This document shows, piece after piece, positions 14,180 to 38,748 of a stretch of DNA of 64,000 bases. Position numbers and translations under genes: made by a program. Location of the stretch: assembly GCA_000242935.3 (NCBI GenBank), contig CP007053.1, positions 3,271,001 to 3,335,000 of the forward strand, written 5' to 3'. Origin of the DNA: Opitutaceae bacterium TAV5 (lineage in GTDB: Bacteria; Verrucomicrobiota; Verrucomicrobiia; Opitutales; Opitutaceae). The first letter of the stretch is position 1; every line of letters starts with the position of its first letter. The notes beneath the pieces are model-generated. The model worked only from the letters and a program-made list of their open reading frames with translations, was not told the DNA's origin and ran no database searches.

Positions 14180-14309
14180 GGATAGGGGAGAAATAGGAGA
14201 GATAGGAGAAATGGGAGGCGGAGAGGCAACGAGGTTTTGGCGAGACGCCAAACCTCGTCAACCCACCAGTCCCATATCTCCTATACCTCTCATATCTCCC
14301 CATCTCTCC
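14180..14309. repeat. 130-bp palindrome between convergent genes
   Basis: The left arm (14180-14219) is made of GGAGAAATAGGAGAGATAGG words and the right arm (14269-14309) of the complement. The centre is a strong hairpin: CGAGGTTTTGGCG (14230-14242) pairs with CGCCAAACCTCG (14246-14257) with one bulged base. It lies between two converging genes, so a role as a bidirectional terminator is possible, but there is no U-tract. It also covers the last codons of the esterase gene. Confidence 0.7.
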
Positions 14310-15489
14310 AGCGGAGGTCGGTGAAATCCATGAAATAACCCCAGTCTTCGGCGGTGAGATCGTGTTTGCCGGCGCGCAGGTGATAGCCGATGGCGCCGGT
14401 ATGGAGAGGCTGCGCGATGCCGGGCTGGATGACCGCGCCGACACCGGGAAGCGTGTAGAGACCATAAACCGGGCCGGCCTCGACGCAGGCGCGGAACTCG
14501 GCCGCCGGGTCCGCCCAGGCATCCTCGCTGGCGCTGGCGACGTACACGAGACGCGGCGCGAGCAAGGCCAGCAACTCGTGCTGGTCGACGGGCAGGCGGG
14601 AAACGTCGGCGCCGTAGTCGTGATAGTTGCGGGCGAACCAGTGGGGGAATTGTCCGTTGATGTCCTTGACGGTTTCCCCGCGGGTGATGCGGGCCGGGGC
14701 GGCGCCGGTGCTGCCGGAATTGTTGCTGATCGCCAGCGCCACGCGCCGGTCCTGCGCCCCGCACCAGAGAGCCGCCTTGCCGCCCCGGGAATGGCCGGCG
14801 ACGGCAACCGGCACGCCGTGTAGTGCCGGTTCGGTGACAATCCAGTCGATGGCGCGGCTGGCTCCCCAGGACCACGCGGCGATCGTGCCCCAGGCGTTGC
14901 CGGGGCGGGGTTCGCCCCCGGTTCGCGGGGCGTCATGGATGCTGAATACGCCGCTTCTGAATCCGTCGGTCTTGTCGTCGGGAGCGAGGTCGCTGTTGTG
15001 AAAGGCGGCGGTCGCATAACCGCGGGCGATGATTTCGCGGGCGGGCCAGAAACCTTGCGGATTGTTTTCGGATTCCGTGATGATCTTGCGGTTGCGATTG
15101 ACGATCAGCAGGAAACAGCCGCGCGGCCGGGCAGGGGTTTTCGGGAGGTAAACCGTCAGCGGGAAGGACAACTCGCCATGGGGGCCGACGCAGGTGATCC
15201 GCACCTGGCGGCAGGTGGCGAGGCCGTCGAAGGCGTCGGCGGTGGAGGTGACCTCGAAACGGAGAGCGTCGGGACGCCCGGCGGGATTGCGGCCGTAAAC
15301 GTGTTCCCGAAAAAGCTCCAGAAGCTCCGGGCGGCGAAGCTCCTCCCATTGTGTGGCGGAAGTGATGCGGACACCGTTTCCGGTGAGCAGCGGATCGGGC
15401 AAGACAATGGTGGCGGCGGAGTCGAGCATGGCAGGAAGTGACGCGATCGGGAAAACGCTGATGAGAAGGAGAAGGGCGGAGCGGAGCAT
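14290..15489 (-). CDS. Secreted CE15-like (glucuronoyl) esterase
   Basis: A 399-aa alpha/beta-hydrolase with a signal peptide (MLRSALLLLISVFPIASLPA). The nucleophile elbow is GHSRGGKAALW with Ser234. A histidine in AGKHDLT (His376) fits the catalytic base, and the stretch SNNSGSTGAAPARITRGE is typical of the bacterial CE15 family. CE15 enzymes cleave ester bonds between glucuronic acid on xylan and lignin alcohols. The acidic member of the triad cannot be assigned with certainty. An upstream TTG at 15540 would overlap the previous gene; ATG 15489 gives the better signal peptide. It is the last gene of cassette 1. Its 3' end lies in a palindrome. Confidence 0.8.
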   Translation of the reverse strand: MLRSALLLLISVFPIASLPAMLDSAATIVLPDPLLTGNGVRITSATQWEELRRPELLELFREHVYGRNPAGRPDALRFEVTSTADAFDGLATCRQVRITCVGPHGELSFPLTVYLPKTPARPRGCFLLIVNRNRKIITESENNPQGFWPAREIIARGYATAAFHNSDLAPDDKTDGFRSGVFSIHDAPRTGGEPRPGNAWGTIAAWSWGASRAIDWIVTEPALHGVPVAVAGHSRGGKAALWCGAQDRRVALAISNNSGSTGAAPARITRGETVKDINGQFPHWFARNYHDYGADVSRLPVDQHELLALLAPRLVYVASASEDAWADPAAEFRACVEAGPVYGLYTLPGVGAVIQPGIAQPLHTGAIGYHLRAGKHDLTAEDWGYFMDFTDLRWRDGEI

Positions 15490-15533
15490 GGTACCGGGAG
15501 GAACCAGAAAGCTGTCGTTCTGCCTGCCAAAGG

Positions 15534-16388
15534 TCAGCAACGAATTTCTGCAACCGTGGCCTGCGGACAGGAGGTACGCAGGAACGCGATGGTCTCATCC
15601 GGTATTCGGGGAATGACGACAAGCGCGAACAACAGATCGACCGGGTCACAGTCGATCGTTTCTGGCGGCAGCCTGAGGGCGACCGCGCCATGAGTGGCGC
15701 GGTCCAGCAAGGTGGCCAGCGCGAGATCCTCATGAAAATCGTCTGGCCGCTTGAGACGATGAGCGATTTTGCGCCAGGCGAGATCAATCAGGGTCTCAAT
15801 CGCCCCCCGGGCCGGAGCAAAATGCCGGAGGTGGTTTTCAAACGCATGCAGCATGAGCAATTCACGGAGGCGCCCGGCGGAATCCTCGCCTGTTGCGGCT
15901 GGTCGGTCCCTTTGCGCGATGCGGAGCCTGTCTCGCAGACAAACGGCTACATCGTTCGACAGATCATCGTCCCCGGTCAGCCCGGCGGCCGTGTGCAGGA
16001 CGAAAATTTCGGCAAGATCGCCGGCGGGCAGCTTCCGGATATTGCCGGCCATGTGCACGATTGTCGGGGAGAGGCGCCGTCGCAAGGCCGGATCGAGACG
16101 GCGGTGGTGCCGGTGCCAGAGCAAGGACAAGGTGAAGCCGATGGAAACCCGTTCGTCGTCCTGACGGCGGATCAGGCGGGAAGGGACTCCGGGTGTATCG
16201 ATGATGCGTGCGACGATCGCCTCGGCGCGACCCAGGCGCGAGCACTCGGCAAGTTCGAGAAGAGCCAGCGCGTAGCAGAGGGATTTGTAGCGGCTTCCCG
16301 AGGGAAGCAGTCCCGGGCCGGGATCGTACACGTCGTCCCACGCGGAGACGATGGCATGAAGCAACTCTCTCCGGTGTGCCTCGATCAT
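15534..16388 (-). CDS. Unknown helical protein, cassette paralogue 1
   Basis: A 284-aa protein with no recognised domain and no signal peptide. It begins MIEAHRRELLHAIVSAWDDV, then has DPGPGLLPSG, YALALLELAECSRLGRAEAI and LLWHRHHRRLDPALRRRLSP. The same landmarks occur in 23310-24176 and 31097-31900, so the three form a local family. Repeating helix pairs and the RAEAI motif recall alpha/alpha toroid proteins, but this is only a resemblance. Its ATG overlaps the stop of the CBM9-like gene by 4 bp, indicating coupling to that secreted binding protein although it appears cytoplasmic itself. Confidence 0.8.
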   Translation of the reverse strand: MIEAHRRELLHAIVSAWDDVYDPGPGLLPSGSRYKSLCYALALLELAECSRLGRAEAIVARIIDTPGVPSRLIRRQDDERVSIGFTLSLLWHRHHRRLDPALRRRLSPTIVHMAGNIRKLPAGDLAEIFVLHTAAGLTGDDDLSNDVAVCLRDRLRIAQRDRPAATGEDSAGRLRELLMLHAFENHLRHFAPARGAIETLIDLAWRKIAHRLKRPDDFHEDLALATLLDRATHGAVALRLPPETIDCDPVDLLFALVVIPRIPDETIAFLRTSCPQATVAEIRC

Positions 16389-17191
16389 GGCGCGGCAGGA
16401 GGGAGGGTTTCCGGGGAATCCGCCAGGATCAGCCGGCCGTAACGCTCGGGGCGGTGCGGGGAAGGGAAGGACAGGCCGGAGTGGGACCACAACGAGAACA
16501 CGCTCGGGGGTTTTTCCCCGGGACGCTGGTTCCAGCGGCCGAAATTGGCGCGGAGGGCACCGCCGCGCTTCCGGGGGCCGAGAGCGGGGAGCACGGTTCT
16601 CCACGGTATGGAAATCTCAATGACAAATCCGGAGCGACCATCCGGAAAGGTGACGCGGCCGGTTTTTACGATCGCATGCGAATCCCAGCCATAGTGAAAC
16701 CAGTCCGAATGCCGGTAATAGAAATCGGCGATGGCCCCGGTTACGGAAACCTCCAGGCCGATGGCGTCGGAGAGGCGTTCGCGGTCGTCGGCAAGGAAAA
16801 CTTCGACGCAGTCATCGCGGTACGTCTGGTCATCGGCTGCGGTGCGGTTGCCGACGATATGGGTGTCGACGCAGTGGAAGCCGAGGTAGAGGGAATGGTC
16901 ATCGTAAGCGATGCGGACGGTGGTCGTTTCGCCGGTCGGGGTCGCGTCGGGTCGGGTCCAGAATTCGGTGAGCATGAAGCGGGCGGCCCCGGCGACGTCC
17001 CATTTGTCGTCGAGGCGGCCGTTGAGGGCGACAGGTGAGGCGGTCCGGGGGATGCGAAGTTCGGGAAGGGGAGGGAGGTCGGCGGCGAAGACGACGGAGG
17101 TGGCGAGGGCGGCGAGCAGCAACAAACGACGTTTGCGCCGCTCCGCTGCGGGCGAGACGCCCGCGCCACGTCCGGATAGCGGCGTTCGCAT
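16385..17191 (-). CDS. Secreted CBM9-like carbohydrate-binding protein
   Basis: A 268-aa protein composed of one CBM9/DOMON-like beta-sandwich. Landmarks are VALNGRLDDKWDVAGAARFM, VRIAYDDHSLYLGFHCVD, DDQTYRDDCVEVFLADD and ANFGRWNQ. A hydrophobic segment after RRKRR (LLLLAALATSVVFAADLPPL) acts as the signal peptide. The first residues (RGAGVSPAAERRKRR) are encoded by an interspersed repeat, so the start may have been altered; an internal start near the hydrophobic segment cannot be excluded. It lies 3 bp after the large glycosidase-like gene and overlaps the next gene by 4 bp. A paralogue is at 57530-58285. Confidence 0.85.
   Translation of the reverse strand: MRTPLSGRGAGVSPAAERRKRRLLLLAALATSVVFAADLPPLPELRIPRTASPVALNGRLDDKWDVAGAARFMLTEFWTRPDATPTGETTTVRIAYDDHSLYLGFHCVDTHIVGNRTAADDQTYRDDCVEVFLADDRERLSDAIGLEVSVTGAIADFYYRHSDWFHYGWDSHAIVKTGRVTFPDGRSGFVIEISIPWRTVLPALGPRKRGGALRANFGRWNQRPGEKPPSVFSLWSHSGLSFPSPHRPERYGRLILADSPETLPPAAP
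17149..17168. repeat. Interspersed GC palindrome at a gene start
   Basis: GCGGGCGAGACGCCCGCGCC lies over the first codons of the CBM9-like gene. It is a copy of the element inside nuoG (5393-5414) and at 44350-44373, with one base changed in the core. Confidence 0.7.
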
Positions 17192-17194
17192 GAT

Positions 17195-19585
17195 TCAGAA
17201 CGTCCGGTAGACCTGCGTCTCGCCGGGAGCGGGCAGCGAGGCCGCCGCCGTCGCGGAGGCGGTGGCTACGACGTTGACGGGTTGTTTGCCGGGCCAGGTT
17301 TTCAGCTTTTCGAGCCAGCCGGCGGGCAGGCCGTCGCCTTCGATCTGCCACGCGTCGAGGTTGCAGCCTTGCGGGGACGGCTCCGTGCCGCGGTCGCGGT
17401 TGCGGAAATCGTAGCTCGTCATCGTCAGACCGCGATCGTTGCGGACGAGGATGCTGTCGGGGTTGCTGGTCGAGACGAGGGTCTTGCCATCCACCGAGAT
17501 CTTCCGCGCTCCCCAGGCGGTCCAGGAGCCGTCGCGCGTGACCACGGCGAATCCGTTGGGGCGTAGTCCTTCGATCACGACGTCGCCGAGCGGGGAGGAT
17601 ACGCGGACGGCGGCGAGAACATCGGGCGAGGCGGTGTTCGCGACGACGACCTGACCGGTCCAGATGCTCGCGCGCCAGCCGGCCGGGTCGATGAGGTGTC
17701 GTTGCATGCGTTCGGTGGCGGCGGGGGCGAAGACGCGGTTGAGTTCGAAGATCTGTTGCACGACCGGCGTGTAGTCCCGAATCCAGGCGGAGCGGGCGTC
17801 GTGGCCCATCGAGGCGCCGTAGAGCGCGCGGACGGCGCGGGTGGCGTCGTTGTACGTGCGGTTGTTGCCGTCGATGCCGACGATATTGGCGAAACAGTCG
17901 CCGTAAACGAGCTCCACCAGCGGCGCCCACGACACGGTCTTGTCGTTGCCGTACGAGCGGTAGTTGGGAGCCCAGTCGAAGTACGGCAGCATCTGTTCCT
18001 GGCCGTCCTCGGTGCCGTAGGTCATGTCGGGCGCGGTCTCGCGCAGCGCGGCGAAGAGTTTCAGGACGTCCTGATAAAAATGATCGCCGCCCCACGCAGG
18101 ATAGCCGGCGCGCGGGTTGAAGTCGTTGTAGGGCGCCATGGCGCCGATCACGTCCCAGAAAACGCCGGCGGCCGGACCGGTGAAGGCATGCAGCCGGGAG
18201 AGCGTGCGGACGTTGTCGGCCGTGGCGAATTTCGGCGAGGCAAGGTAGAGCCGGTTGCCACCCCAGATATCGGGCCGCAGCGGCTGGCCGCTGGCGAGGG
18301 CGACCATGTGCTCGATGTCGAAGCCGTTTTCCTCGGCGTCGTATTGTACGGGATTGAGGTGGTAGAGGATGTGACGGTTGTCTTTCCGGTTTTCCTCCTG
18401 GAACCAGGTGAACTTCGCATCGCCGCCGAGCTGGTCGCTGACGGGGAACACGGAGGGGTAGTGAGCATCGAAGCGGCCCCACCAGCCGTCGTAGCGGTAG
18501 GAGGGCCGGATATCGTAGAGCGCTTCCAGCCCGCGGGCTTCGCGCAGGGCGCGTTCGAAGGTGTGATACGGCGCGGCCATCCGCTCTTTCCGCTCGCGCG
18601 GGGCGAAGACACGTTTGCCATCCTCGAGGATGTCGAGCGCGCCGAAGCCGACGAATTTGACGATGCCTTCCCGGATGGTGTCGGCGAGTTGCGGACGGGC
18701 CTTGAGTTTGTCGGACAGTTTTTGTTTCGCCCAGGATTGGGCGCGGCCGAATTCGGCGTAGGCGACGGCGAGATCGTTGATCGGGTCGGGTGTGGCGAGC
18801 GGCCGGATGACGTAATCGTAGGGCGGTGCATAAGGAGACTGACCGGGAGTGAGGACGACCGATTCGGACCAGCCCATGCGGAAACCGCCGGCCGGACCGT
18901 GTTGGGCAAATTTCAGGAATCCGGTGGTGTCTTCGGGATAGCTGACGAGACCGTTGCCCTTGCCGTCGTGATAACCCGTCCACTGCATCCAGAGATGACC
19001 GGGGGCGGGGTGCTCCTCGTATTTGACGGCATCGGTGCGGTAGAGTTTTCCGCTGCGGTAGGGGAGGACGTACCAGGCATCGGCGGTGGCATCGAGGTTG
19101 GAAAGGGCAGCGATATTGAAGCGCAGTCCGACGGGTTCCCCGGCGTCATGATCCAGCGAATACCGGACGCGCAGGCGGTCGCCTTCGGCGGTGTCGATCC
19201 GCCAGGTGAGGTGAACGCGAACGCCTGCGGGTTTGAGGTCGTAGACGGCCTTCACACCGACACCGCGATCGTCGCGGAAGCTCGCGATCGAGACGGACCC
19301 GGCATCGGCGAGGCTCCAGGTCTTGCCGCTCCGGCCGAGCGACCAGAAGCTGCTGGTCGGGAGGTTGAGCCGCCAGGCGGCCTGGCCCCGCGCATCGAGC
19401 CGTTCGATACTGCGCATGTCGCCTCCGGCGGTGATGGTGACGCGGAGCGCATCGCCTGCGATCTCCCAGCCGTTGGCGGCGCTTCCCGTGACGGAAACGG
19501 GACCGGCCGGCAGAGGCGGAATGACAAGCGCGGCCGCAGCGAGCGACGCGAGAGCAGAAAGAACAAGGGACCTGACGGGAATCAT
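17195..19585 (-). CDS. Large secreted glycosidase-like protein (DUF6259-like)
   Basis: A 796-aa secreted protein with signal peptide (MIPVRSLVLSALASLAAAAL). The N-terminal 250 residues look like a beta-sandwich (SVTGSAANGWEIAGDALRVT). Then comes a probable TIM-barrel region with many acidic and aromatic motifs: YDGWWGRFDAHYPS, FWDVIGAMAPYNDFNPRAGY, TYGTEDGQEQMLPYFDWAP and LVELVYGDCFANIVG. The C-terminal part is another beta-rich domain. The arrangement resembles uncharacterised families such as DUF6259, often grouped with glycoside hydrolases. The catalytic residues are not identified; TEDGQEQ is a candidate. The start at 19585 is chosen for the signal peptide. Confidence 0.7.
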   Translation of the reverse strand: MIPVRSLVLSALASLAAAALVIPPLPAGPVSVTGSAANGWEIAGDALRVTITAGGDMRSIERLDARGQAAWRLNLPTSSFWSLGRSGKTWSLADAGSVSIASFRDDRGVGVKAVYDLKPAGVRVHLTWRIDTAEGDRLRVRYSLDHDAGEPVGLRFNIAALSNLDATADAWYVLPYRSGKLYRTDAVKYEEHPAPGHLWMQWTGYHDGKGNGLVSYPEDTTGFLKFAQHGPAGGFRMGWSESVVLTPGQSPYAPPYDYVIRPLATPDPINDLAVAYAEFGRAQSWAKQKLSDKLKARPQLADTIREGIVKFVGFGALDILEDGKRVFAPRERKERMAAPYHTFERALREARGLEALYDIRPSYRYDGWWGRFDAHYPSVFPVSDQLGGDAKFTWFQEENRKDNRHILYHLNPVQYDAEENGFDIEHMVALASGQPLRPDIWGGNRLYLASPKFATADNVRTLSRLHAFTGPAAGVFWDVIGAMAPYNDFNPRAGYPAWGGDHFYQDVLKLFAALRETAPDMTYGTEDGQEQMLPYFDWAPNYRSYGNDKTVSWAPLVELVYGDCFANIVGIDGNNRTYNDATRAVRALYGASMGHDARSAWIRDYTPVVQQIFELNRVFAPAATERMQRHLIDPAGWRASIWTGQVVVANTASPDVLAAVRVSSPLGDVVIEGLRPNGFAVVTRDGSWTAWGARKISVDGKTLVSTSNPDSILVRNDRGLTMTSYDFRNRDRGTEPSPQGCNLDAWQIEGDGLPAGWLEKLKTWPGKQPVNVVATASATAAASLPAPGETQVYRTF

Positions 19586-19709
19586 GATGACGAGTAGGAT
19601 GGAAGGGGGAGACCGGAAGGAGAAGAGTGCGGGCACGCGGAGCGCCGGCGGCGACGCGAGGCGTCGCGGACAGGGAGCGGAGGACGGACCGGAAGACCGA
19701 GCCGGAAGC

Positions 19710-20501
19710 CTACGGGGCGGAGCCGTGGATTTCCACCTCGTAGAGGATGCCGCCCATGGAAGCGGTGGGCCCCGGGCGGCGGCTCACGCTGGCGCCGAGG
19801 CGGAGGTTGACGTAGCGGGCGGAGCGGGGTGCGGCGACAAATTCCACCGGGGACGACCGGTCCTTCGGAATCGTGACCGAGCCGAACAGGCGGAAATCGT
19901 TGTCGGCGGGTTTGGCCGGATCGGCGAACTCGCTGGCGGTGTAGCATTCCTGTTCGCCGGCCCAGCGGTGGCCGCCCTGGTCGCGTATCCAGAGGACAAC
20001 CTTCGTCACCCGGTATCCGGCGCCGAGATCGAACAGGATGTCGAATTGTCCGGTGTTGGCGCCGGTTTCCGACACGTCGCCCCGGCTCAGCACGTTGATC
20101 CAGCCGGAGACGGGGGCGGTGGCTTGCCGGGTGCTGTCGGTGACGCCGTCGGTCAGCTCTCCCGAACGGACGGGAACGGGAGCGGCGTTGGCGCCGGTGT
20201 CGACGAGTTCTCCGTCACGGGTGAGAAGGCCGCCGCCGGCGCTGGCGTGGAGCCCTTGCGGTTTCGCGCTGTCGCCACCGCCCGGGTAAAACATGCGGGT
20301 GAAGGGCGTGATGTTTTTCCGCGAGGCATCGCCGCGCGCGAAGTACGTGTAGGCGCCGGATTCGCGGACTTCGGGACGCCGGAGGAGATTTTCGGCGGAT
20401 TGCGCGTCTGCGTTTGTGGCCTGGGCGGCAAGCAGGCCGGAGAGCAGGATGGCCGATGCAGCGGCGGCGAATGCGGTTTTTTCCCGATAGGAGAAGATCA
20501 T
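19710..20501 (-). CDS. Secreted discoidin-like protein
   Basis: A 263-aa secreted protein (signal MIFSYREKTAFAAAASAILL). The central and C-terminal parts fit a discoidin/F5-8C-like beta-sandwich: LTDGVTDSTRQATAPVSGW, FDILFDLGAGYRVTKVVLWI and VEFVAAPRSARYVNLRLGAS. Such domains often bind glycans on surfaces. It stands between the PEP-CTERM gene and the large glycosidase-like gene in cassette 1, the position held in cassettes 2 and 3 by the unrelated 240-aa family. Function is inferred only from fold type. Confidence 0.7.
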   Translation of the reverse strand: MIFSYREKTAFAAAASAILLSGLLAAQATNADAQSAENLLRRPEVRESGAYTYFARGDASRKNITPFTRMFYPGGGDSAKPQGLHASAGGGLLTRDGELVDTGANAAPVPVRSGELTDGVTDSTRQATAPVSGWINVLSRGDVSETGANTGQFDILFDLGAGYRVTKVVLWIRDQGGHRWAGEQECYTASEFADPAKPADNDFRLFGSVTIPKDRSSPVEFVAAPRSARYVNLRLGASVSRRPGPTASMGGILYEVEIHGSAP

Positions 20502-20539
20502 GATGGCACGAATGATGAGAGTGGGTTTCCGGTTCCGGG

Positions 20540-21298
20540 TCAGCGTTTCCCGGGCAGAAAACGGCGGCCGGCAACTCCGGCGAGGATGATTGCGCCGAGG
20601 CCCAGGGCCACGCTGGAGGGTTCGGGAATGGCGACGAGCGAGAAGGTGATATCGAGGCCGGGCTGGCCGTCGTTGGCGACACGATTGTAGCCGATGAAGC
20701 CCGTTTGCTGGCTTCCGCCCAGTTCGAAGCTGAAGCGATACATGACCGTGCTGATCGGTTGTCCGTCGGACAGGGCGGTAAGGGCGAGCGATTTGCCGCC
20801 GGCAAGGCTGTTGGCATTGGTGGAACCGGTGGCGGTGTCGCTGTAGATCGTTTCCCAGGTGGTGCCGTTATCCACACTGATTGCGCCCGTGAGCGTTGCC
20901 GTGGAGGTGTAGCCGCTGAAGGTCCGGAAATTGTCGGTATTGATGGTGATCGTATCCGGGGAAAATCCCTGGAGTTGTGAAAAGTCGAATGTCCAGGTGA
21001 CGTATCCGCTGGTCGCGTTCGGGCTGTACCAGCGAACACCGCTGGCTCCGGTCCCTGTCTGTTGCGGGTTCCCGCTGAAATTGAACCCGCTGTAGTCAGC
21101 GACGTTTTTTATCTGCGAGATGTTGTCGTAGGTGAAGTTGGTGTAGTGCCAGGTGTAGTTTCCATTTCCGTCGTCAACAGGTGTGGAAACAACGATGGGG
21201 GCTGCATGGGCGATGCCGGCGAGGGCGAGGCAAAATGCGAGCGTCGCCGCAATGCGGTGGTGCGAGGCGAACGGGCGCAGTACGTCTGTGTTTTTCAT
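20540..21298 (-). CDS. PEP-CTERM anchored surface protein
   Basis: A 252-aa secreted protein. It has a signal peptide after a short charged start (RIAATLAFCLALAGIAHA) and the C-terminal sorting signal IPEPSSVALGLGAIILAGVA followed by GRRFLPGKR. PEP-CTERM tails are recognised by exosortase, which leaves the protein at the cell surface or in exopolysaccharide. The body is beta-rich, with many Thr and Ser (TDNFRTFSGYTSTATLTGAI), and looks like a binding module. No exosortase gene is in the window. Confidence 0.9.
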   Translation of the reverse strand: MKNTDVLRPFASHHRIAATLAFCLALAGIAHAAPIVVSTPVDDGNGNYTWHYTNFTYDNISQIKNVADYSGFNFSGNPQQTGTGASGVRWYSPNATSGYVTWTFDFSQLQGFSPDTITINTDNFRTFSGYTSTATLTGAISVDNGTTWETIYSDTATGSTNANSLAGGKSLALTALSDGQPISTVMYRFSFELGGSQQTGFIGYNRVANDGQPGLDITFSLVAIPEPSSVALGLGAIILAGVAGRRFLPGKR

Positions 21299-22162: not shown

Positions 22163-22201
22163 GGGGCTTGGAATGGACTGGAAGGAGGATCGGGCCGACT
22201 C

Positions 22202-22251
22202 AGACGTGTCTTGACGACAGGAGCAATGATCCCAGCGTGTAACACGTTACA
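22202..22251 (+). promoter_or_regulatory. LacI-type promoter/operator, cassette 1
   Basis: From left to right: AGACGTGTCT (22202-22211, an inverted repeat with centre GT), TTGACG (22211-22216), GCAAT (22223-22227), 12 bp, then TAACACGTTA (22240-22249) inside the inverted repeat TGTAACACGTTACA (22238-22251). The last base is the A of the lacI start codon. The same order and 12-bp spacing recur at cassettes 2 and 3. Autorepression and control of the divergent pilin operon are the natural inference. Confidence 0.75.
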
Positions 22252-29071: not shown

Positions 29072-29104
29072 GGTTGGTAGGTGTTTTTTGGATGCGGAAA
29101 GTGA

Positions 29105-29896: not shown

Positions 29897-29938
29897 TTGA
29901 CGGGATATTGCAATCGGCCCATTATCTGACACGTCAGA
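29897..29938 (+). promoter_or_regulatory. LacI-type promoter/operator, cassette 2
   Basis: TTGACG (29897-29902), 7 bp, GCAAT (29910-29914), 12 bp, TGACACGTCA (29927-29936), which lies inside the inverted repeat TCTGACACGTCAGA (29925-29938). The final A is the A of the lacI ATG. A possible -10 (CATTAT) stands 17 bp after TTGACG. Confidence 0.75.
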
Positions 29939-31900: not shown

Positions 31901-31916
31901 GGTGAACGGACGAGGC

Positions 31917-34900
31917 TCAGGGCTGCAGGATGGCATGGCCGAGGCGGTCGGCTTCGTTGGCGATGCCGTTTTTCCAGCGCAGGTAGCGCACGCGTCGTTG
32001 CCAGCGGTCGGGGCGTTGCCCGTCGTCTTCGTTGACGATGAATGAAAACCGCAACGGCAGGGGGCTGGCGGCGTCCTGCATGGAGCCAATGCCGAGTTTG
32101 TCGAACGGCACCCACGCTTCGTAGCGGGTCAGGTTGCCGGTGCGGTCGATGCGCAGCGGCGTGTCCCAGCGTCCGGTGGGCGCCGGGCCTGTCGAGCGGG
32201 TGCACCAGATGACCTGCTCGCCCTTGTCCGTCAGGCCGAGGGAAAGGGTGGTGACGTGGCCGGCATGTTCGCCGGTGCCGGCGATGGCGATTTGCACGCT
32301 GTCACCACGATCGAGGCGCGAAGGCGTGGAAACCTGCACGTGTTTGTTGTCGGTGACATCGAAACGGAAATACAGGCCGCGTCCGTCATGCGCGATGCGC
32401 GCGGTGGCGGAAAGATCCTGCGGGCCGCGCCAGGGTGTGATGCTCGGATCGAAGGCAAATTCCACCACGTCGGATTGCCGGTCGAGCGTGATCGCGGGAA
32501 GCGTGGCAATGACCTCGGCCTGACCGGACGAAAACGGGTTGCCGCCGGCAGCGGGCAGGCGGCGCACCGGGTATGCGCCGACGATGCGCACGGGCAGGGC
32601 GAGTTGCTGGTCCTGCCACCGGATGTCGAGCGTCATGAGACGGTCGACAAGTACACCGGTGGTGGCGAGCGCAACGGGGATGTTGGCAGAGAACGGAGAG
32701 GTGGCGCCGGCTTCGAGCGTGAAGGGTTGTGTCCACACGGGAGCATCGGCGCCGGCAGATCCGGCATCACGAAGCGACATGCGACCCGAAGCGACGTGCG
32801 ATTGCGGTTCACGGAAGGCGAGGGGAAGCGTGCCGCCGTTGTCCCCGTCCACGGTGACGGAGGAAGGCACGTTCAGGAAAATATCGGCCGGTGGACTCGC
32901 GGCGAGTTCGCCGGCGTCGCCGGGCGCGCCGGTCGTGAGATAGACGGGGCCGTCGCCGAGCGCGACGACGGCGGTGCGGCCGAATTGCGGTGCGGGAGCG
33001 GCGCGGCCAAACAGGTCGGTGACGGTGAGCGCCCGGCCTTCGGGAACGGTCAGCCAGAGCTGCTCGCCGGTGCTGCCGCCCTGGAGCCAGCAGACGTAGA
33101 CGAGGCTGCCGTCGTCGCGACGGAATTTGAGAGCGCGGACGTCGGCAGCGAGTTCAGCTTCGCCGACGGGATCGGTGTTGGCGAGCTGGCGAATGAGTTC
33201 GTTGTACGCGACGAAGGAGGGTTTGGGACGGTTGTCGGAGGTGACGAGGCCGAAAGAGTCGTCGGCTTCGGCGTCCATGTCCCAGTAGTCCTGAAGCGTG
33301 AACCAGAGATACAGTTCGCTGGAAGGGCGGGACTTGGCGTAGGCGATTTTCTGCACGAGGGTGATCGCCTGGCGGAACCGGCCGGCGGGCGTGTAGCCGC
33401 TGCGTTCGCCGGTCTCGGAATTGAGGATACGTTTTTCGATACCGGCCTCGCGCAGCCAGCCTTCGATTTTTTGTTGCTTGCCTTCGTAGTTTTCGAGCGA
33501 GCCGTGGGCGTGAAAGGCGGCGATGTCGTAATCGCCGGCATGGTCGATGATCGCACCGCGGGAAGTGCCGGCAATTTCGTCGGCAAGGGTGAGGCCGCCG
33601 GTGGTGAGGAGCGTGGTCCGGTTGGTGGAGCGGAAGCCGCGGCTGAATGTGGAGAACATTTTCAGGTAGTCTTCGCGCGTGCCGTGAAAAAAGCCGTGGC
33701 CGACGCCGGGGCCTCCGGAATCGGGTTCGTTCCAGAACTGGACGTATTTGACTGAAGGATACTTTCCGATGAAGGCGCCGAACTCCGCGGCATGTTTTTC
33801 GAAGCGGGCGTAGTCCTTGGGAGGCGTGCGGTTGTCCCGGGGATTGGTGGTCATCCAGGTGGGCAGCTCGAAAAAGGTGAACAGCACGTCGATGCCGGCG
33901 GCCCGGTAGCCGTCGAGAATGGGTTTCCAGCCATCGAGATTCCAGTGACCGTCACGATTTTCGAGGCGGCCGCCGCCACCGGCCAGGCGATCGGCATCGG
34001 AGCCGAGTTGCCTGGCCCATTCGAGATGGAGAGTCCGTTCGGTCTCGGCTTCCCAGATGGGCTGGTCCTGCACACCAAGCCACATGGGACGGGTGTTGAG
34101 GCGACGGTTGTTGGGAATGAAGACGCCGAAGGGGTCGTCACAGGTTGCCCGGAGCGGTGTGCCGGAGGCGATGGCTTCGAGAGTGACATCGGCTTGCCAG
34201 GCGCCGACGGGGAGCATCCCGAGATCGAGGATGGCATCGGCGTGGCCGCGGGCGGGAAGGCGGAGGGGAACGGATTTTTCGAGACGGAACGCCCCTTCGG
34301 CGGTGTGCAGGCGGACGGCAACGGTCGCGTCGAGCGGAGAGGGCAGGGCGTTGGACGCGCGATAGACGAGCGTCACGGGTTTGCCGGGATCGTGGGCGAG
34401 CGTGCGACCGGCATCGAGCGCCACGGGCCGGATGGCGAGCTGGGCGGCGGGGGAGAACCGGCCGGTAAAGGCAAGGTCGTCGATGAACACGCTGCCATCG
34501 CCGCTGGCGTCGGTTTCGAGCGTCACGCGCTGGAGGTGGACAGGGAATTTGATCTGCGCCCAGTCCGGAACGGTCGCGGGGCCCAGATCGAGGCGATATG
34601 ATTTCCAGCCCGGGCCGGAGAGCTGGACGGGGGGGGTAACGAAGGACTTGCGGCGGGCGTCGCGGAGAGTGAAACGGAGAGCGGCGTTGTGCCCGGCAGG
34701 GTTGGCGTCGAATTCGATGCCGTCGGGTGTGACCGTGAGGAGGGTGGCCTTCACGCGTTCGAAACCGAAACGCGCGGGCGGCATGGCATTCGGGTCGGCG
34801 GCGAAGCGGAACTCCCCGACGTAGTCACCGTGGCGTTTTTCTTTTTGCGAGCCGCCGAGAAACACATCGGAGGCAAACCAGGCTCCGGGTTTTTGTCCGC

Positions 34901-35048
34901 GCGCCTCACGCTGACGCCACGTGCCGGCGTCCTCGAAGTCGTCGATGATGCGGCGCTGGCTGTCGGCCGGAGCGGCGGCGTGAACGGAGGCAACGACGAG
35001 CGCGGAGGCGAGGAGGGAGAGGCGGATGTGGCGAGAGCGAAAAATCAT
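31917..35048 (-). CDS. Secreted clan-A-like glycosidase with CBM9-like C-terminus (copy 2)
   Basis: A 1043-aa secreted enzyme-like protein, a close paralogue of 24216-27350. The signal peptide is MIFRSRHIRLSLLASALVVA. The barrel has VQFWNEPDSGGPGVG (acid/base Glu) and LNSETGERSGY (nucleophile Glu). The C-terminal CBM9-like domain starts at about residue 860. Differences from copy 1 are spread over the protein, except for the final 204 bp, which are identical. ATG 35048 is chosen; the frame is open further upstream but crosses the 240-aa gene. Two such enzymes under separate LacI regulators could give different induction of the same activity. Confidence 0.82.
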   Translation of the reverse strand: MIFRSRHIRLSLLASALVVASVHAAAPADSQRRIIDDFEDAGTWRQREARGQKPGAWFASDVFLGGSQKEKRHGDYVGEFRFAADPNAMPPARFGFERVKATLLTVTPDGIEFDANPAGHNAALRFTLRDARRKSFVTPPVQLSGPGWKSYRLDLGPATVPDWAQIKFPVHLQRVTLETDASGDGSVFIDDLAFTGRFSPAAQLAIRPVALDAGRTLAHDPGKPVTLVYRASNALPSPLDATVAVRLHTAEGAFRLEKSVPLRLPARGHADAILDLGMLPVGAWQADVTLEAIASGTPLRATCDDPFGVFIPNNRRLNTRPMWLGVQDQPIWEAETERTLHLEWARQLGSDADRLAGGGGRLENRDGHWNLDGWKPILDGYRAAGIDVLFTFFELPTWMTTNPRDNRTPPKDYARFEKHAAEFGAFIGKYPSVKYVQFWNEPDSGGPGVGHGFFHGTREDYLKMFSTFSRGFRSTNRTTLLTTGGLTLADEIAGTSRGAIIDHAGDYDIAAFHAHGSLENYEGKQQKIEGWLREAGIEKRILNSETGERSGYTPAGRFRQAITLVQKIAYAKSRPSSELYLWFTLQDYWDMDAEADDSFGLVTSDNRPKPSFVAYNELIRQLANTDPVGEAELAADVRALKFRRDDGSLVYVCWLQGGSTGEQLWLTVPEGRALTVTDLFGRAAPAPQFGRTAVVALGDGPVYLTTGAPGDAGELAASPPADIFLNVPSSVTVDGDNGGTLPLAFREPQSHVASGRMSLRDAGSAGADAPVWTQPFTLEAGATSPFSANIPVALATTGVLVDRLMTLDIRWQDQQLALPVRIVGAYPVRRLPAAGGNPFSSGQAEVIATLPAITLDRQSDVVEFAFDPSITPWRGPQDLSATARIAHDGRGLYFRFDVTDNKHVQVSTPSRLDRGDSVQIAIAGTGEHAGHVTTLSLGLTDKGEQVIWCTRSTGPAPTGRWDTPLRIDRTGNLTRYEAWVPFDKLGIGSMQDAASPLPLRFSFIVNEDDGQRPDRWQRRVRYLRWKNGIANEADRLGHAILQP
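31942..32145 (-). repeat. 204-bp block identical to 24241-24444
   Basis: Second copy of the identical block at the 3' end of the duplicated glycosidase genes. Flanking codons diverge on both sides. Confidence 0.85.
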
Positions 35049-35095
35049 CGGACGGATGGGAAAGACGGGATCTGCGAGACGGGAAAGGGCATTGT

Positions 35096-35824
35096 TTACT
35101 TCGCGGGTTCCACCTGAAATACGACCTGAAAAAAACGGTCGGGCTGATCCTGGCGGGTCAGGTTCCAGAGAGGGCCTCCGCGGTCGGGATTGCCGCCCGG
35201 CTGGCCTTTTTTCAGATAACCTCCGCTGACGGGCTGGTCGGAAATGAAGACGACCTTGTAATACACGACGGACGAGGCGCCGGCGTCGAACTTCAGGGGA
35301 TCGGTCAGATACGCCTTGTCGCCACGGAAGCCGACATCGGGCGCGGCGCTGTTGAGCGGTATCCATTCTCCGGATTCTCCGACGCGGTAGAAGGACGTGA
35401 AGCCCGTGCGGGAACGTTTCTGGTAAGTGGCGCCATCCTGCTCGATGCGCACGATCTCGCGCAGGCGCATGCCGACCGGGCGGACGCCGGCGGGAGTGAA
35501 ATCGAATTTGTAGACGAACTCCGCGGCGGACGCACCCGGTTTCATGCTGATGAAGGCCCAGGCGCCGCCCTGCATCCGGAGGTTGGAGAACGAGTGGACG
35601 TCATCGAAGAACTTGTTGCCGACATCGATCCAGTCCCAGTCGGGGATCTTGCCCGAGGCCGGCGTGAGGGTCTGCATGTCCTCGCGAGTGAGCCGGTAGA
35701 TGTAGCGTCCGTTGTGGATGTCGTCGGGCTTGATGGCGAGTTCGGCGCGGGCAGGGGCGGCACCGGTAAAGGCAAGAGGGACGACAAGTGCGAGGAGTGG
35801 AAGGGTGGAGATGCGCGGAAACAT
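35096..35824 (-). CDS. Secreted 240-aa protein, copy 2 (cassette 3)
   Basis: A 242-aa secreted protein, paralogue of 27401-28123. The signal peptide is MFPRISTLPLLALVVPLAFT. Shared landmarks: GRYIYRLTREDMQTLTPASG, NKFFDDVHSFSNL, EFVYKFDFTPAG, RSRTGFTSFYRV and VVYYKVVFISDQPVSGGYL. It lies next to a PEP-CTERM protein (35914-36711) with a related body, so soluble and anchored forms of one fold sit side by side. Function unknown. Confidence 0.82.
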   Translation of the reverse strand: MFPRISTLPLLALVVPLAFTGAAPARAELAIKPDDIHNGRYIYRLTREDMQTLTPASGKIPDWDWIDVGNKFFDDVHSFSNLRMQGGAWAFISMKPGASAAEFVYKFDFTPAGVRPVGMRLREIVRIEQDGATYQKRSRTGFTSFYRVGESGEWIPLNSAAPDVGFRGDKAYLTDPLKFDAGASSVVYYKVVFISDQPVSGGYLKKGQPGGNPDRGGPLWNLTRQDQPDRFFQVVFQVEPAK

Positions 35825-35913
35825 GACGGTTCGGAGAATGGAAACAGGAAATGAAAAGGGACGCGGATGATGGCTCCGCGTCCCGGAAATACCAATGCGC
35901 GGAGCCGGGAGGA

Positions 35914-36711
35914 TTATTGATATCTGCGGCGGCGGAGGATCATGGCGGTGAGGAGGCCGGCCCCGCCGAGCAGCGCGGCCCAGGCAGAGGGCTCGGGGAT
36001 TGTGGCAAGGTCAAAGGAAGCGGTGAAGAAACCACTGGTTGTACTGGTATTGGTGGTATAGTTCCAGTTAACACCGGTGTGACCATTGTTGGATTCTCCG
36101 GTGTAGCTGCCGGCAAGTGGACCGGATGAGGAAAGGACAACCTTGTAGTAAACAATGGATGTCGTCTCGGCCAGCGGCACCGTATCCGTGAAGGTAGTTT
36201 GTCCCATATACCCTTTTGCGGGCTCCACTTCATGCAGCAGCGACCAATTGACACCGTCCGTGCTGTACCAGGAGGTGAAACCGGTAAGATTTCGCTTGTC
36301 ACCGTCAGACAGCCATGTGCCATCCTGCTCGCGCCTGACAACCTCGCTGATGGTAAAGCTGTTGACGGTGTAGTTCAGATCGGTGAAATCGAACTTGTAG
36401 ACAAACTCGCCATCGGTGGCTCCGTTGATCAGGGAAACCGAGGAACGGGTTCCTCCGTTGAAGACGGTCATGTGGATATTGGAGAACGACAGCACATCGT
36501 CGACGAACTTGTTGCCCGTAGCCGTCCAGGGGGCATCCGCTACTTTTGACGTGGCGGCAGTATACTGGGCCGTATCCGTGAAGTTGAGCGAATAGGAGTA
36601 TGTGTTATCGACAATGCTGCCCGCGTCGATAACGAGGGCCGCGCTTGCGGCGGTGGTCATGCCGAGTGCAAGGCAAAGCCCCGCACCGATTTTAAGCGGT
36701 GTTGTTTTCAT
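35914..36711 (-). CDS. PEP-CTERM anchored paralogue of the 240-aa family (cassette 3)
   Basis: A 265-aa secreted protein with signal peptide (MKTTPLKIGAGLCLALGMTT) and sorting tail IPEPSAWAALLGGAGLLTAM followed by ILRRRRYQ. The body matches the neighbouring 240-aa protein: NKFVDDVLSFSNIHM, GEFVYKFDFTDL, RREQDGTW, NLTGFTSWY and IVYYKVVLSSSGPLAGSYTG. It would be anchored at the surface by exosortase. ATG 36711 is chosen for the signal peptide; an upstream ATG at 36777 would overlap the pilin gene. Confidence 0.9.
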   Translation of the reverse strand: MKTTPLKIGAGLCLALGMTTAASAALVIDAGSIVDNTYSYSLNFTDTAQYTAATSKVADAPWTATGNKFVDDVLSFSNIHMTVFNGGTRSSVSLINGATDGEFVYKFDFTDLNYTVNSFTISEVVRREQDGTWLSDGDKRNLTGFTSWYSTDGVNWSLLHEVEPAKGYMGQTTFTDTVPLAETTSIVYYKVVLSSSGPLAGSYTGESNNGHTGVNWNYTTNTSTTSGFFTASFDLATIPEPSAWAALLGGAGLLTAMILRRRRYQ

Positions 36712-36766
36712 GATGGGTGGTGATTCTGGTCCTGGGCGAAGGGGGCTGTTTCCCGAGTCGGGAAGG

Positions 36767-37492
36767 TTACCAGTCAAAGCCTCTCAGGCCGTAAGGTTGT
36801 TCGGGGACGGAGTTGTTGCGGTAGTCAGCAATGACACTGGGGGATTTATTGGGATCACCGTTGTCCTTGACCATTTTGACGCTTCCGTCCGCAAATCCGA
36901 CGGGAGAAAATCCTCCATACTGCCCCCCGGTACCATTGGATGTGAATACGGCGTAGAGAAAGGCATCCGATGCCCGGACAATTGTCGATACGCGGATCGG
37001 CAAGCCGCGTTTATTCCCATAGGTAACCAGCCCGCCGGTTAATCCTTCGTTATATCGGATTCGTCCTCTCCACAGATAATCGGCGCTGCCGTAAGCATAG
37101 TTATCCCGATTTTGCAGCTTGACGACTTTCGGATCATACCATGCCTCGCTCTTGAACGGGAAGTAGGGCTCAAGCGCATTTCGGGCGACAATGCTGTAGG
37201 TTCCGAGATTGGTGTCTCTCTCGTGGGGAAGGGCGTCCTTGTTGTCATTTGCGTAAAGCAAAGCGGCCTGAGCGGCGCTGCGGACGTTGGAGATGCTCTG
37301 CATTTTCCGGGCGCTTTCCCGGACCTTGCCAACCACCGGGATGATGATCGCCGCCAGGATGCCGATGATGGCAATGACCGTGAGCAATTCGATCAGCGTG
37401 AAAGCCCTGATCGGCTGGCGGGAGGCAGAGGAGGGAAAGCCGATATCCGTGGAGAGGGAAGGGTTCGGATGAAAACGGAAGGAATTGTTCAT
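36767..37492 (-). CDS. Pseudopilin-like protein (cassette 3)
   Basis: A 241-aa protein with the prepilin-type helix FTLIELLTVIAIIGILAAII after PIRA, so again Ala before the cleavage site. The C-terminal portion has SPVGFADGSVKMVKDNGD and ends GLRGFDW, like the cassette 1 protein. It is the first gene of the cassette 3 minus-strand operon, 89 bp from the divergent lacI start. Its role in a pilus-like or secretion structure is inferred from family knowledge only. Confidence 0.9.
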   Translation of the reverse strand: MNNSFRFHPNPSLSTDIGFPSSASRQPIRAFTLIELLTVIAIIGILAAIIIPVVGKVRESARKMQSISNVRSAAQAALLYANDNKDALPHERDTNLGTYSIVARNALEPYFPFKSEAWYDPKVVKLQNRDNYAYGSADYLWRGRIRYNEGLTGGLVTYGNKRGLPIRVSTIVRASDAFLYAVFTSNGTGGQYGGFSPVGFADGSVKMVKDNGDPNKSPSVIADYRNNSVPEQPYGLRGFDW

Positions 37493-37540
37493 GGGGATTT
37501 GACGAAGGTTTTACAGGAAACGGCTGCAGAGGACTCCATC

Positions 37541-37582
37541 TTGACGGACAGTGCAATCCGGGTGTTTGCTTACACGTAAGCA
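37541..37582 (+). promoter_or_regulatory. LacI-type promoter/operator, cassette 3
   Basis: TTGACG (37541-37546), 6 bp, GCAAT (37553-37557), 12 bp, TTACACGTAA (37570-37579). The core lies in the 16-bp inverted repeat TGCTTACACGTAAGCA (37567-37582), whose last A is the A of the lacI ATG. Confidence 0.75.
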
Positions 37583-38748
37583 TGACCCCGAAAAAAAACT
37601 CCGGACACCGGGCGCATCACTCCCGAAGGCAAAAATCGAAGACGGGCGGGACTCCTTCGAAGAAGCGGTCCGGTGGTGCCGGCCGCACTGCGGTCAGGAA
37701 GGCAGAAGCAGGCGCCATTGCGAGGGCGCCGACCGTGCGCGAACTGGCAGCGCAGCTCGGAATCAGCCATACGACGGTGGCATTCGCATTGCGCAATTCG
37801 GCGAGAGTTTCCGTGGAGACACGCAGGCTCGTGCAGGCAGCGGCTCACAAGGCGGGTTATCGGAAAAATCCGCTGGTCAACGCGCTCATGGCCCAGGTGC
37901 GGCAGCGGCAGCGGCTTCAGCCGACGGGAGAAGTGGTGGCGTATTTGACATCCTGCGACACGGAGGACGACTGGCGAAGGCATCCGTCGCTTGTCCAGCA
38001 GTTCGACGGGGCGCGGAAACGCGCGCGGGAACTGGGTTTTGATTTGCAACCGGTATGGATGGGGACCGTCGGTGAACACTCGCGCCAGACAGCGCGAGTC
38101 CTGACGGCGCGCGGCGTGCGAGGGTCGGTGCTGGCTCCGATCGGGATCAACCACCGGACGCTGGAACTGGACTGGACGGAACATGCGGTGGTGACGATCG
38201 GGTATTCCTTCCGTCAGGTGTCATTGCACCGGGCGGTGCATGACAACGTCAACCTGGCCATGTCCTGCTATTCGCATCTCCGGAAAACGGGCTACCGGCG
38301 TATCGGGATGGCCATGCACGCGCTGGATGACGAACGTGTCCGTCATCTCTGGTTGACGGGATGCCTCGGGGCGCAGCGGGTGCACGGAGGAGAGCCGGTG
38401 GAGCCGTTGTTGTTTCCGGACTACACCGATCCGGCAGCGTTCCGAAAGTGGTTCGCATGCGAAAAACCGGATGCGGTTATCAGCATCTGGCAGGACCAGC
38501 CTCTCGGATGGATGCGGGAGAACGGCATAGGCGTGCCCGAGGATGCGGGTTATGCGACGCTTGATGTCGTGGACCGGGTGGGACAAATCGCGGGTATGCT
38601 GCAAGACAACCGCGGCGTGGGCGCGGCGGCGATGGACTTGCTGGCGAGCCAGCTTTTCCGGAACGAGATCGGCATCCCGCAAACGCCGACGGTTACGATG
38701 ATCGAGGGGACGTGGGTGGACGGCCCGACGGTGGCGAGGCGGGAATGA
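37582..38748 (+). CDS. LacI-family transcriptional regulator (cassette 3)
   Basis: A 388-aa regulator with a 45-residue basic extension (KKNSGHRAHHSRRQKSK) before the helix-turn-helix VRELAAQLGISHTTVAFALR. The hinge is VNALMAQVRQRQRLQPTG. The sensor domain matches the other two (LHRAVHDNVNLAM, TGYRRIGMAM, LASQLFRNEIGIP) and ends TWVDGPTVARRE. The basic N-terminal extension is unusual and may come from start-codon choice, but the operator ends exactly at ATG 37582. It is expected to regulate its own cassette. Confidence 0.93.
   Translation: MTPKKNSGHRAHHSRRQKSKTGGTPSKKRSGGAGRTAVRKAEAGAIARAPTVRELAAQLGISHTTVAFALRNSARVSVETRRLVQAAAHKAGYRKNPLVNALMAQVRQRQRLQPTGEVVAYLTSCDTEDDWRRHPSLVQQFDGARKRARELGFDLQPVWMGTVGEHSRQTARVLTARGVRGSVLAPIGINHRTLELDWTEHAVVTIGYSFRQVSLHRAVHDNVNLAMSCYSHLRKTGYRRIGMAMHALDDERVRHLWLTGCLGAQRVHGGEPVEPLLFPDYTDPAAFRKWFACEKPDAVISIWQDQPLGWMRENGIGVPEDAGYATLDVVDRVGQIAGMLQDNRGVGAAAMDLLASQLFRNEIGIPQTPTVTMIEGTWVDGPTVARRE

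Follow-up and report, generated by a model that had tools for sequence, protein, structure and literature searches.

The stretch of DNA analysed here (the window, 64,000 nt) is C1:3271001-3335000 of Opitutaceae bacterium TAV5, whose source we take to be the termite hindgut. The genome is 7,417,673 bp in two contigs, described as a chromosome of 7,317,842 bp and a plasmid of 99,831 bp (PMC4358385). The window contains four blocks in which a gene for a LacI regulator is divergent from a run of genes encoding a pseudopilin, a PEP-CTERM protein and secreted proteins that are probably active on glycans. A reading made from the sequence alone (the sequence-only reading) had described blocks 1-3 as repeated cassettes in a row, each a fixed unit under its own LacI switch that may build a surface structure and a matching enzyme in response to one glycan, and block 4 as a related unit in the other orientation. 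The genes that it named were located where it had placed them or close by.

Gene content of the four blocks

In blocks 1-3 LacI is encoded on the plus strand, divergent from a close-packed run on the minus strand, with gaps of -4 to 90 bp within the runs and of 88, 98 and 89 bp between LacI and pilin in blocks 1, 2 and 3, respectively. The gene types common to the three blocks are a pseudopilin, a PEP-CTERM protein, a small secreted protein, a large secreted glycan-active protein and a helical protein. Block 4 has the mirrored orientation, with LacI, a PEP-CTERM protein, a pseudopilin, a 1448-aa secreted protein and a CBM9 protein. Carbohydrate-active enzymes adjoin a regulator in the block units, an arrangement expected of CAZyme gene clusters.

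The LacI genes (22251..23372, 29938..30996 and 37582..38748 on the plus strand, 49666..50814 on the minus strand for block 4) gave 43.2, 30.9, 29.7 and 56.6 bits with PF00356 (cut-off 27). For block 2 the start of the open reading frame at 29908 is probably too early and the real start is probably 29938. The sensor domain PF13377 was over its cut-off in blocks 1, 2 and 4 (45.0 and 44.9 bits in blocks 1 and 2); no Pfam sensor-domain match was listed for the block 3 protein, although it is 66-73% identical to the LacI of blocks 1 and 2.

The pseudopilins of blocks 1-3 (21380..22162, 29105..29839 and 36767..37492, minus strand) and block 4 (52424..53128, plus strand) were all recognised by TIGR02532 (32.6, 29.4, 26.8 and 26.6 bits, cut-off 16.3), and those of blocks 1-3 also by the Pfam model N_methyl (30.5, 27.0 and 28.4 bits, cut-off 21.2). 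More specific models were not reached. With TIGR04294 (H-X9-DG-CTERM, cut-off 19) the block 1 pilin scored 14.4 bits and none was listed for blocks 2-4; a consensus HxGxxNxLFxDGHV was seen among 30 cassette pilins. The scores of blocks 1-4 with TIGR01710 (GspG, cut-off 88.85) were 29.4, 29.4, 34.3 and 33.5 bits, and those with TIGR02596 (Verru_Chthon, cut-off 70) 21-27 bits. The PEP-CTERM proteins (20540..21298, 28214..29071 and 35914..36711, minus strand; 50928..52361, plus strand) were over the cut-off of PF07589 (20.7) in blocks 2 and 4 (21.6 and 22.1 bits) and under it in blocks 1 and 3 (14.4 and 17.9 bits). TIGR02595 (cut-off 16) recognised those of blocks 2-4 (18.7, 20.0 and 19.4 bits) and gave no match in block 1, where the tail was read by eye.

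The large secreted proteins of blocks 2 and 3 (24216..27350 and 31917..35048, minus strand) are PslG/GH39-like: PslG (PDB 5bx9) was matched with E 1.2e-8 over residues 323-661, and no Pfam family was found at or above cut-off. A query with this enzyme across the genome contigs gave 242 pattern matches, none of which was confirmed. The large protein of block 1 (17195..19636, minus strand) appears to be glycan-active by a match to DUF6259 (PF19773, 29.0 bits, cut-off 28.7), with weak matches to PDB 8rzg and 5opq (E 4e-4). The large protein of block 4 (53173..57519, plus strand) had a weak GH123_N match of 17.5 bits, below the cut-off of 22. The CBM9 part that the sequence-only reading had seen with each large protein is a separate gene in block 1 (16385..17191, minus strand; PF06452, 39.0 bits, cut-off 23.4), whereas the C-terminal CBM9-like stretches in blocks 2 and 3 fell under the cut-off (15.2 and 16.7 bits). 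Block 4 ends with a CBM9 gene (57530..58285, plus strand; 34.3 bits), the product of which is 37% identical to that of block 1. We add to the earlier gene list a secreted glucuronyl-esterase-like protein of 399 aa in block 1 (14290..15489, minus strand; PF22244, 103.8 bits, cut-off 27), the gene of which follows the helical gene after 44 bp.

The helical proteins of blocks 1, 2 and 3 have 284, 288 and 267 aa (15534..16388, 23310..24176 and 31097..31900, minus strand). No signal peptide was seen by eye in the block 1 protein, which is 43-44% identical to the other two, and the 3' end of the block 2 gene overlaps the end of the block 1 LacI gene. In block 4 (49666-58285) no helical gene was seen and a helical profile search listed none, in line with the sequence-only reading. 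The copies scanned matched no Pfam, NCBIfam or PHROG family. An AlphaFold model made from three sequences had a mean pLDDT of 65, and Foldseek gave it no match with an E-value of 0.001 or lower. Amid unrelated helical repeats it weakly resembled (E 0.04-0.25) an unsaturated glucuronyl hydrolase, a chondroitinase and a DUF2891 protein. We suspect that the protein may be a shortened alpha/alpha-toroid enzyme. Matches to it were found in 4 of 273 genomes of the order, TAV5 included. One copy (L090) is flanked on one side by small secreted genes and on the other by a PEP-CTERM gene that has a divergent LacI, another (L089) adjoins a gene with a sub-cut-off oligogalacturonate lyase match, and one, in genome G050 (L132), follows a pilin. 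A longer relative of 592 aa with extra C-terminal sequence and no Pfam or NCBIfam family (L091, 514-2292, minus strand) adjoins an unnamed gene.

The three blocks in a row are repeats of one another in part. All three have in common LacI (61-73% identity), the pseudopilin (40-45%) and the helical protein (43-50%); the enzyme (86%) and the small secreted protein (80%) are common to blocks 2 and 3 only. The block 1 large protein gave no score above shuffled sequence with those of blocks 2 and 3, and the block 1 small protein (19710..20501, minus strand) showed no clear kinship to the small proteins of blocks 2 and 3 (27401..28123 and 35096..35824, minus strand), its scores of 43 and 51, compared to shuffle maxima of 47 and 41, being at shuffle level. 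In block 3 the PEP-CTERM protein is paralogous to the small secreted protein, with identities of 43% to the block 2 copy and 41% to the block 3 copy.

Synonymous divergence between blocks 2 and 3 was lowest in the enzyme gene (Ks 0.38), followed by the genes for the small protein (0.50), LacI (0.95), the helical protein (0.98) and PEP-CTERM (1.80), and it approached saturation in the pilin gene (2.91). The DNA is 84% identical over 4.3 kb, starting within the helical gene and reaching the PEP-CTERM tail. This pattern points either to homogenisation of the middle of the blocks or to replacement of the pilin gene together with the body of the PEP-CTERM gene. The third-position GC content (GC3) was lowest in the pilin and PEP-CTERM genes of these blocks (28214-29839 and 35914-37492), 0.61-0.68 compared to 0.73-0.79 in the other genes there, hinting at a possible replacement from elsewhere; two nuo-like genes of the window had 0.88-0.90. 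A transposase gene (48372-49448, minus strand; DDE_3, E 5e-23) adjoins block 4 and is a possible vehicle for movement of a cassette.

Operator-like palindromes at the LacI genes

Each of blocks 1-3 has a perfect palindrome with arms of 6-7 bp and an AC spacer at the start of LacI. In block 1 TGTAAC-AC-GTTACA (22238..22251) ends at the A of the LacI ATG, as does TGCTTAC-AC-GTAAGCA (37567..37582) in block 3, and in block 2 ATCTGAC-AC-GTCAGAT (29924..29939) overlaps the ATG. A promoter-like TTGACG on the plus strand precedes the palindrome centre by 33.5, 34.5 and 33.5 bp (22211..22216, 29897..29902 and 37541..37546). The layout is common to the three blocks and the arms differ (TGTAAC, ATCTGAC and TGCTTAC). 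The LacI proteins also differ in letters that we take to lie in the recognition helix (SIATVSRAL, SRTTVALAL and SHTTVAFAL in blocks 1, 2 and 3). Because the same layout comes with different arms, the three LacI proteins are probably separate switches, each presumably binding its own site.

Palindromes with a CACG/CGTG core, a class defined on blocks 1-3 themselves, occurred in 6 of 51 divergent LacI regions, and in 3 of 48 when the defining blocks were left out (about 0.3 expected). They were found in none of 65 divergent regions lacking a regulator, with a background of 30 in 1,504 kb. Palindromes in general (arms of at least 7) were present in 12 of 41 divergent LacI regions compared to 2.5 in shuffles; this general test was rejected as evidence for switches, control divergent regions being enriched too. 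The dedicated LacI switch and the polysaccharide target proposed by the sequence-only reading appear to be borne out by the anatomy, namely the divergent LacI, the operator-like palindromes and the enzyme content.

Recurrence in TAV5 and in related genomes

The counts for the TAV5 genome are lower bounds: at least 150 pseudopilin N-termini (297 candidates, of which 150 were scored, each exceeding the cut-off), at least 150 LacI matches (250 candidates, 150 scored; two of the window's own LacI genes are not among the matches listed) and at least 149 PEP-CTERM matches (386 candidates, 150 scored), with 148 of the 149 exceeding the cut-off. Co-location was assessed with the 149 pilin, 150 LacI and 149 PEP-CTERM chromosomal positions listed, one plasmid pilin match being excluded, and with 20 random placements as the null. 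A divergent LacI was within 500 bp of 16 of the 149 pilins (random mean 0.3, maximum 2) and within 2 kb of 32 (mean 3.0, maximum 7), and a convergent LacI within 2 kb of 2 (mean 3.1). Upstream within 500 bp, 18 pilins had PEP-CTERM on their own strand (mean 1.0, maximum 3) and none had it on the divergent strand (mean 0.6), all distances being taken between motif matches. The genome also has four exosortase matches over cut-off and 13 T2SSE matches, two of them on the plasmid. No match to SusD (PF14322) was found in the TAV5 genome, and among 14 control genomes only Bacteroides was positive.

Gene runs were examined in a random draw of 80 of 137 pilin clusters, the window excluded, a few of the stretches overlapping. 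Gene calls recognised the pilin in 69 of the 80 pilin-centred stretches. The calls have errors at gene starts, truncate LacI in blocks 2 and 3 and do not include the helical gene of block 2; as a check, the stretches were also read in all six frames, independently of gene calls. Among 92 pilin genes (the 69 stretches and the window, 90 distinct), 65 had PEP-CTERM in the same run, 77 a gene of at least 400 codons, and 37 PEP-CTERM, a large gene and a regulator. The run was headed by a regulator in 53 cases (49 LacI and 4 AraC), 43 of them divergent; 15 of the sampled runs ended at a stretch border. By the six-frame count, 66 of the 80 stretches had PEP-CTERM within 6 kb on the pilin's strand and 11 had it on the opposite strand; LacI was present in 48. 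Of 20 control stretches (280 kb, three placed by hand, several being cassettes themselves), gene calls showed a pilin in 6, PEP-CTERM in 6 and PEP-CTERM with a regulator in 5. Scaled up from six pilin-bearing stretches in 280 kb, the chromosome would have about 160 pilins, some 100 of which would share a run with PEP-CTERM if the proportion of 65 in 92 holds; both are rough estimates. Blocks 1-3 are thus three of probably around 100 or more such cassettes in the genome. Gene order is less fixed than the sequence-only reading had it: in the gene calls for TAV5 the gene facing LacI (n=56) was PEP-CTERM in 20 cases, a pilin in 13 and another gene in 23, the last including a few miscalled pilins such as that of block 1. 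It is the composition that recurs.

The sampled runs encode 134 large proteins, 69 of which were scanned for families. The most frequent were Beta_helix (7), heparinase II/III (5), GH42, Laminin_G and NosD (4 each), SSF transporter and GH10 (3 each), and rhamnosidase, alginate lyase and pectin-lyase-like families were present as well; the tally shows 25 of 74 families. Some of the scanned proteins are not carbohydrate-active, for example one glycine-cleavage protein. TAV5 is reported to have 257 glycoside hydrolase genes, with GH39 as the largest family (47 genes; PMC8233224). Among 64 sample proteins called PEP-CTERM, 6 matched PATR repeats, 3 Laminin_G and 2 CBM96, and most bodies matched no family.

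In a sample of 25 genomes of the family, which carries the label f1 and which we take to be Opitutaceae, first-look N_methyl candidates numbered 297 in TAV5, 197 in the other genome of the genus and 7-52 elsewhere. In the same genus, where 17 of 18 listed matches were fetched, same-strand PEP-CTERM was found in 13 of 17 stretches and LacI in 12. In 19 stretches from 13 other family genomes, hand-chosen from among the strongest matches with long frames, the full pilin profile was matched in 14, same-strand PEP-CTERM in none, PEP-CTERM on the other strand in one and LacI in none. Six of the 19 (L092, L094, L101, L102, L104 and L108) carry a 288-codon gene divergent from a prepilin-type gene, followed in five by a 168-174-codon gene, a distinct conserved pilin-linked set.

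A profile built from 30 cassette pilins (A3) matched 50 of 96 genomes of the order at E 1e-20, and at least nine matches, with scoring limited to 30 per genome, were present in only 17 of the 96, TAV5 included, which belong to f1, f11, f20, f22 and f24. In a second sample (at most 20 matches scored per genome, 53 genomes without a match unlisted), three of the 14 other f1 genomes listed had at least 12 matches (G050, G102 and G164) and 11 had none or one. Stretches of relatives were then taken from top matches, not at random, and read over 6 kb for same-strand PEP-CTERM and for LacI, which were found, respectively, in 7/7 and 6/7 stretches of G050, 4/6 and 3/6 of g8, 7/7 and 1/7 of f22, 3/9 and 4/9 of f20, and 2/9 and 2/9 of f11. 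LacI was near in 2/8 stretches of f24 and 5/14 outside the order. In one f24 stretch (L139) a PEP-CTERM gene lies further along the pilin's run, and exosortase was present in 12 of 12 tested genomes of the order, two from f24 among them. The sequence-only reading was to be refuted if the order were conserved nowhere else. The module was not seen in most other Opitutaceae sampled, but its composition is kept in the genus and recurs beyond it, in further genera and families, so the reading is not refuted on this ground. Outside the class pilin relatives can be more numerous still: three genomes of 4.2-5.5 Mb (G295, G296 and G309; f36 and f41) have 331 to 414 cassette-type pilin candidates. The eight f36/f41 stretches read, none from G296, showed no PEP-CTERM and LacI near in five. 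Pilin, regulator and enzyme probably form the wider core, to which PEP-CTERM was added in part of the order.

A matching of surface proteins to enzyme, as the sequence-only reading had it, is doubtful. In blocks 2 and 3 the enzymes are 86% and the pilins 42% identical. Four other pairs of runs with enzymes of 57-72% identity and a pilin alignment coverage of at least 0.8 had pilins of 37, 35, 55 and 36%, self-comparisons of runs being dropped and the other pilin alignments spanning the N-terminus only; one pair, at 55%, may fit the proposal. PEP-CTERM identity in such similar-enzyme pairs was 25-34%, two of the four over short stretches. Nearest neighbours agreed above every permutation for LacI and enzyme (12/43, maximum 6), for pilin and enzyme (10/77, maximum 6) and for LacI and pilin (6/49, maximum 5), and not above every permutation for the PEP-CTERM pairs (5/34, 5/57 and 6/49); such agreement is inflated, as two pilins in one run are assigned the same enzyme and LacI. 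Mantel correlations were weak or absent: for LacI and pilin 20 of 500 permutations reached the observed value, and for the other five pairs 54 to 490. Pairwise similarities of pilin and PEP-CTERM were uncorrelated (Spearman -0.03, n=57).

Proposed inducible polysaccharide use and alternative explanations

We favour, with a probability of roughly 0.6, the explanation that each block is an inducible cassette for polysaccharide use, switched by LacI, with a pseudopilin that enters a shared pilus or secretion machine and a glycan that is captured at the surface. The composition of the units, their genome-wide co-location, their recurrence in relatives and the common palindrome layout were observed, whereas regulation, assembly and glycan capture are the parts that we infer. 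Judging by the anatomy, the local LacI repressor would bind its own palindrome at its own start codon, and a sugar from the breakdown of one glycan would make it release the divergent operon. The operon would then supply glycan-active enzymes secreted by Sec, a PEP-CTERM protein processed by a shared exosortase and a pseudopilin that joins a shared machine of the type IV pilus/type II secretion type. At the cell surface the pseudopilin and the PEP-CTERM protein would most likely capture or retain the glycan, a step for which enzyme export by the pseudopilin is the main alternative, and the secreted enzymes would act on the captured glycan in the periplasm or at the surface. The numbers of 13 T2SSE genes and four exosortases, against at least 150 pilins and at least 148 PEP-CTERM proteins, suggest interchangeable subunits. 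The cassette family looks like the lineage's own way of handling many polysaccharides.

Several observations weigh against the cassette explanation. The pseudopilins match GspG and similar models in the N-terminal part only, and the pilin model, with a pLDDT of 43, is too poor for judging the outer domain or for a fold search. Only 33 of the 64 proteins called PEP-CTERM match the Pfam PEP-CTERM model at E 0.01, and the six-frame search applies a permissive PEP-CTERM rule, by which some such tail is present in 10 of 20 control stretches. Since palindromes with arms of at least 7 are enriched in control divergent regions too (14/54 compared to 4.3 in shuffles), evidence can be drawn from the CACG-core class alone, which accounts for 6 of 51 regions. 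Because the palindromes lie where LacI begins and the pilin begins over 70 bp away, they may serve LacI autoregulation mainly or alone. A sigma-70 consensus scan of block 1 detected no promoter. Within 6 kb no PEP-CTERM was seen on the pilin's strand in any of 8 f24 stretches or of 14 stretches outside the order, by which PEP-CTERM is not essential to the module. Pilin and enzyme nearest neighbours agree in 10 of 77 cases (permutation maximum 6), which fits some linkage between the two.

This linkage would suit a different role, in which the pseudopilin of each cassette tunes a shared type II secretion system for its own enzyme and the filament stays periplasmic. Among full-length models, GspG gives the four pseudopilins their top or close to top scores, although 29-34 bits is far under its cut-off, T2SSE genes are shared in the genome, and export of alginate lyases by type II secretion has been proposed by the authors of PMC13274419. 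A cargo-specific pilin is, however, expected to follow its enzyme, so the mostly unlike pilins of similar enzymes (42% at 86% enzyme identity, with 37, 35 and 36% elsewhere) count against export, although the pair at 55% may follow. Glycan capture is favoured by the dextran-binding fibres described for planctomycetes and by the pilus-linked glycan attachment described for Akkermansiaceae (PMC5394234, PMC13174399), and we regard the export role as rather unlikely.

Blocks 1-3 could instead be a local tandem duplication of one operon without wider meaning, with pilin and PEP-CTERM as passengers; the common helical protein, the LacI identity of 61-73% and the 84% DNA identity of blocks 2 and 3 over 4.3 kb would fit. 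The same set of gene types recurs genome-wide and in other genera and families with unlike sequences, and pilin and PEP-CTERM co-occur strongly yet have uncorrelated similarities. Genome-wide co-location and run anatomy largely refute this explanation, to which we give very little weight. Nor do we think it at all probable that the units serve a biofilm, the PslG-like enzyme trimming the cell's own exopolysaccharide matrix and pilin and PEP-CTERM being parts of that matrix. PslG has such a role in matrix trimming and is matched by the enzyme of blocks 2 and 3. PEP-CTERM proteins have been tied to exopolysaccharide genes (PMC1569441), but other cassettes carry lyases and hydrolases of diverse families and no polysaccharide synthesis family was found among the 20 block proteins scanned. 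A more far-reaching form of the cassette explanation is combinatorial glycan capture in place of SusCD: one or a few shared pilus machines would serve on the order of 100 interchangeable pairs of pilin and PEP-CTERM protein under their own LacI or AraC switches, the exposed pair being exchanged or diversifying faster than the enzyme. We offer this tentatively, as a possibility only.

The SusC/SusD loci of Bacteroidota combine, for each glycan, one regulator with enzymes and envelope proteins, and many such loci occur per genome. The TAV5 cassettes resemble them in having a regulator, enzymes and envelope proteins per unit, but no SusD was found in the genome and pilin and PEP-CTERM take the place of the envelope pair. 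A close likeness is seen in Verruconatronum alginivorum, by name of the same order, Opitutales, which has, like TAV5, many pilin paralogues (67 pulG-like pseudopilins) and in which a pseudopilin lies within an alginate-lyase cluster (pgaptmp_000046-60) that rises on alginate in single-replicate proteomics (PMC13274419). Pseudopilin expansion and a pseudopilin in an alginate-induced cluster are thus already in print; the main text of that paper does not use the terms PEP-CTERM or LacI, and its section 17 describes no repeated module (PMC13274419). Akkermansia MUL2 similarly ties a verrucomicrobial pilin-type protein to glycan attachment and uptake but is, by its description, one conserved four-gene locus with PilM, not a switched cassette in many copies (PMC13174399). 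Pili-like fibres of planctomycetes bind dextran (PMC5394234) and are proposed to bring polysaccharide into the periplasm (PMC5394234; review PMC12078418), with no tie to enzyme cassettes in the passages that deal with them. As in the PEP-CTERM/exosortase system described elsewhere, TAV5 has both the tails and the exosortase; in that description they are tied to exopolysaccharide genes (PMC1569441), in TAV5 they are spread over enzyme operons. The Verru_Chthon cassette is, by the NCBIfam name of TIGR02596, a verrucomicrobial cassette with a prepilin-type protein, for which the TAV5 pilins score far below the cut-off. No description of the full module of LacI, PEP-CTERM, pilin and enzyme was found in the open-licence literature searched, mostly titles and passages.

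The module bears on how Verrucomicrobiota without SusCD locate and take up diverse polysaccharides. The combination of pilin, PEP-CTERM and enzymes provides a marker for verrucomicrobial glycan loci, and the neighbouring enzymes allow the substrates of orphan pilin and PEP-CTERM genes to be guessed. Two puzzles become testable, the role of the many verrucomicrobial pseudopilins and the purpose of PEP-CTERM sorting beyond biofilms.

Two further observations concern the surroundings of the blocks. Just before block 1, the minus-strand genes at 1-11700 of the window resemble by eye an NADH dehydrogenase (nuo) operon, and next to block 4 two small overlapping genes (58290-58900, minus strand) resemble by eye a PIN-like/DUF433 toxin-antitoxin pair.

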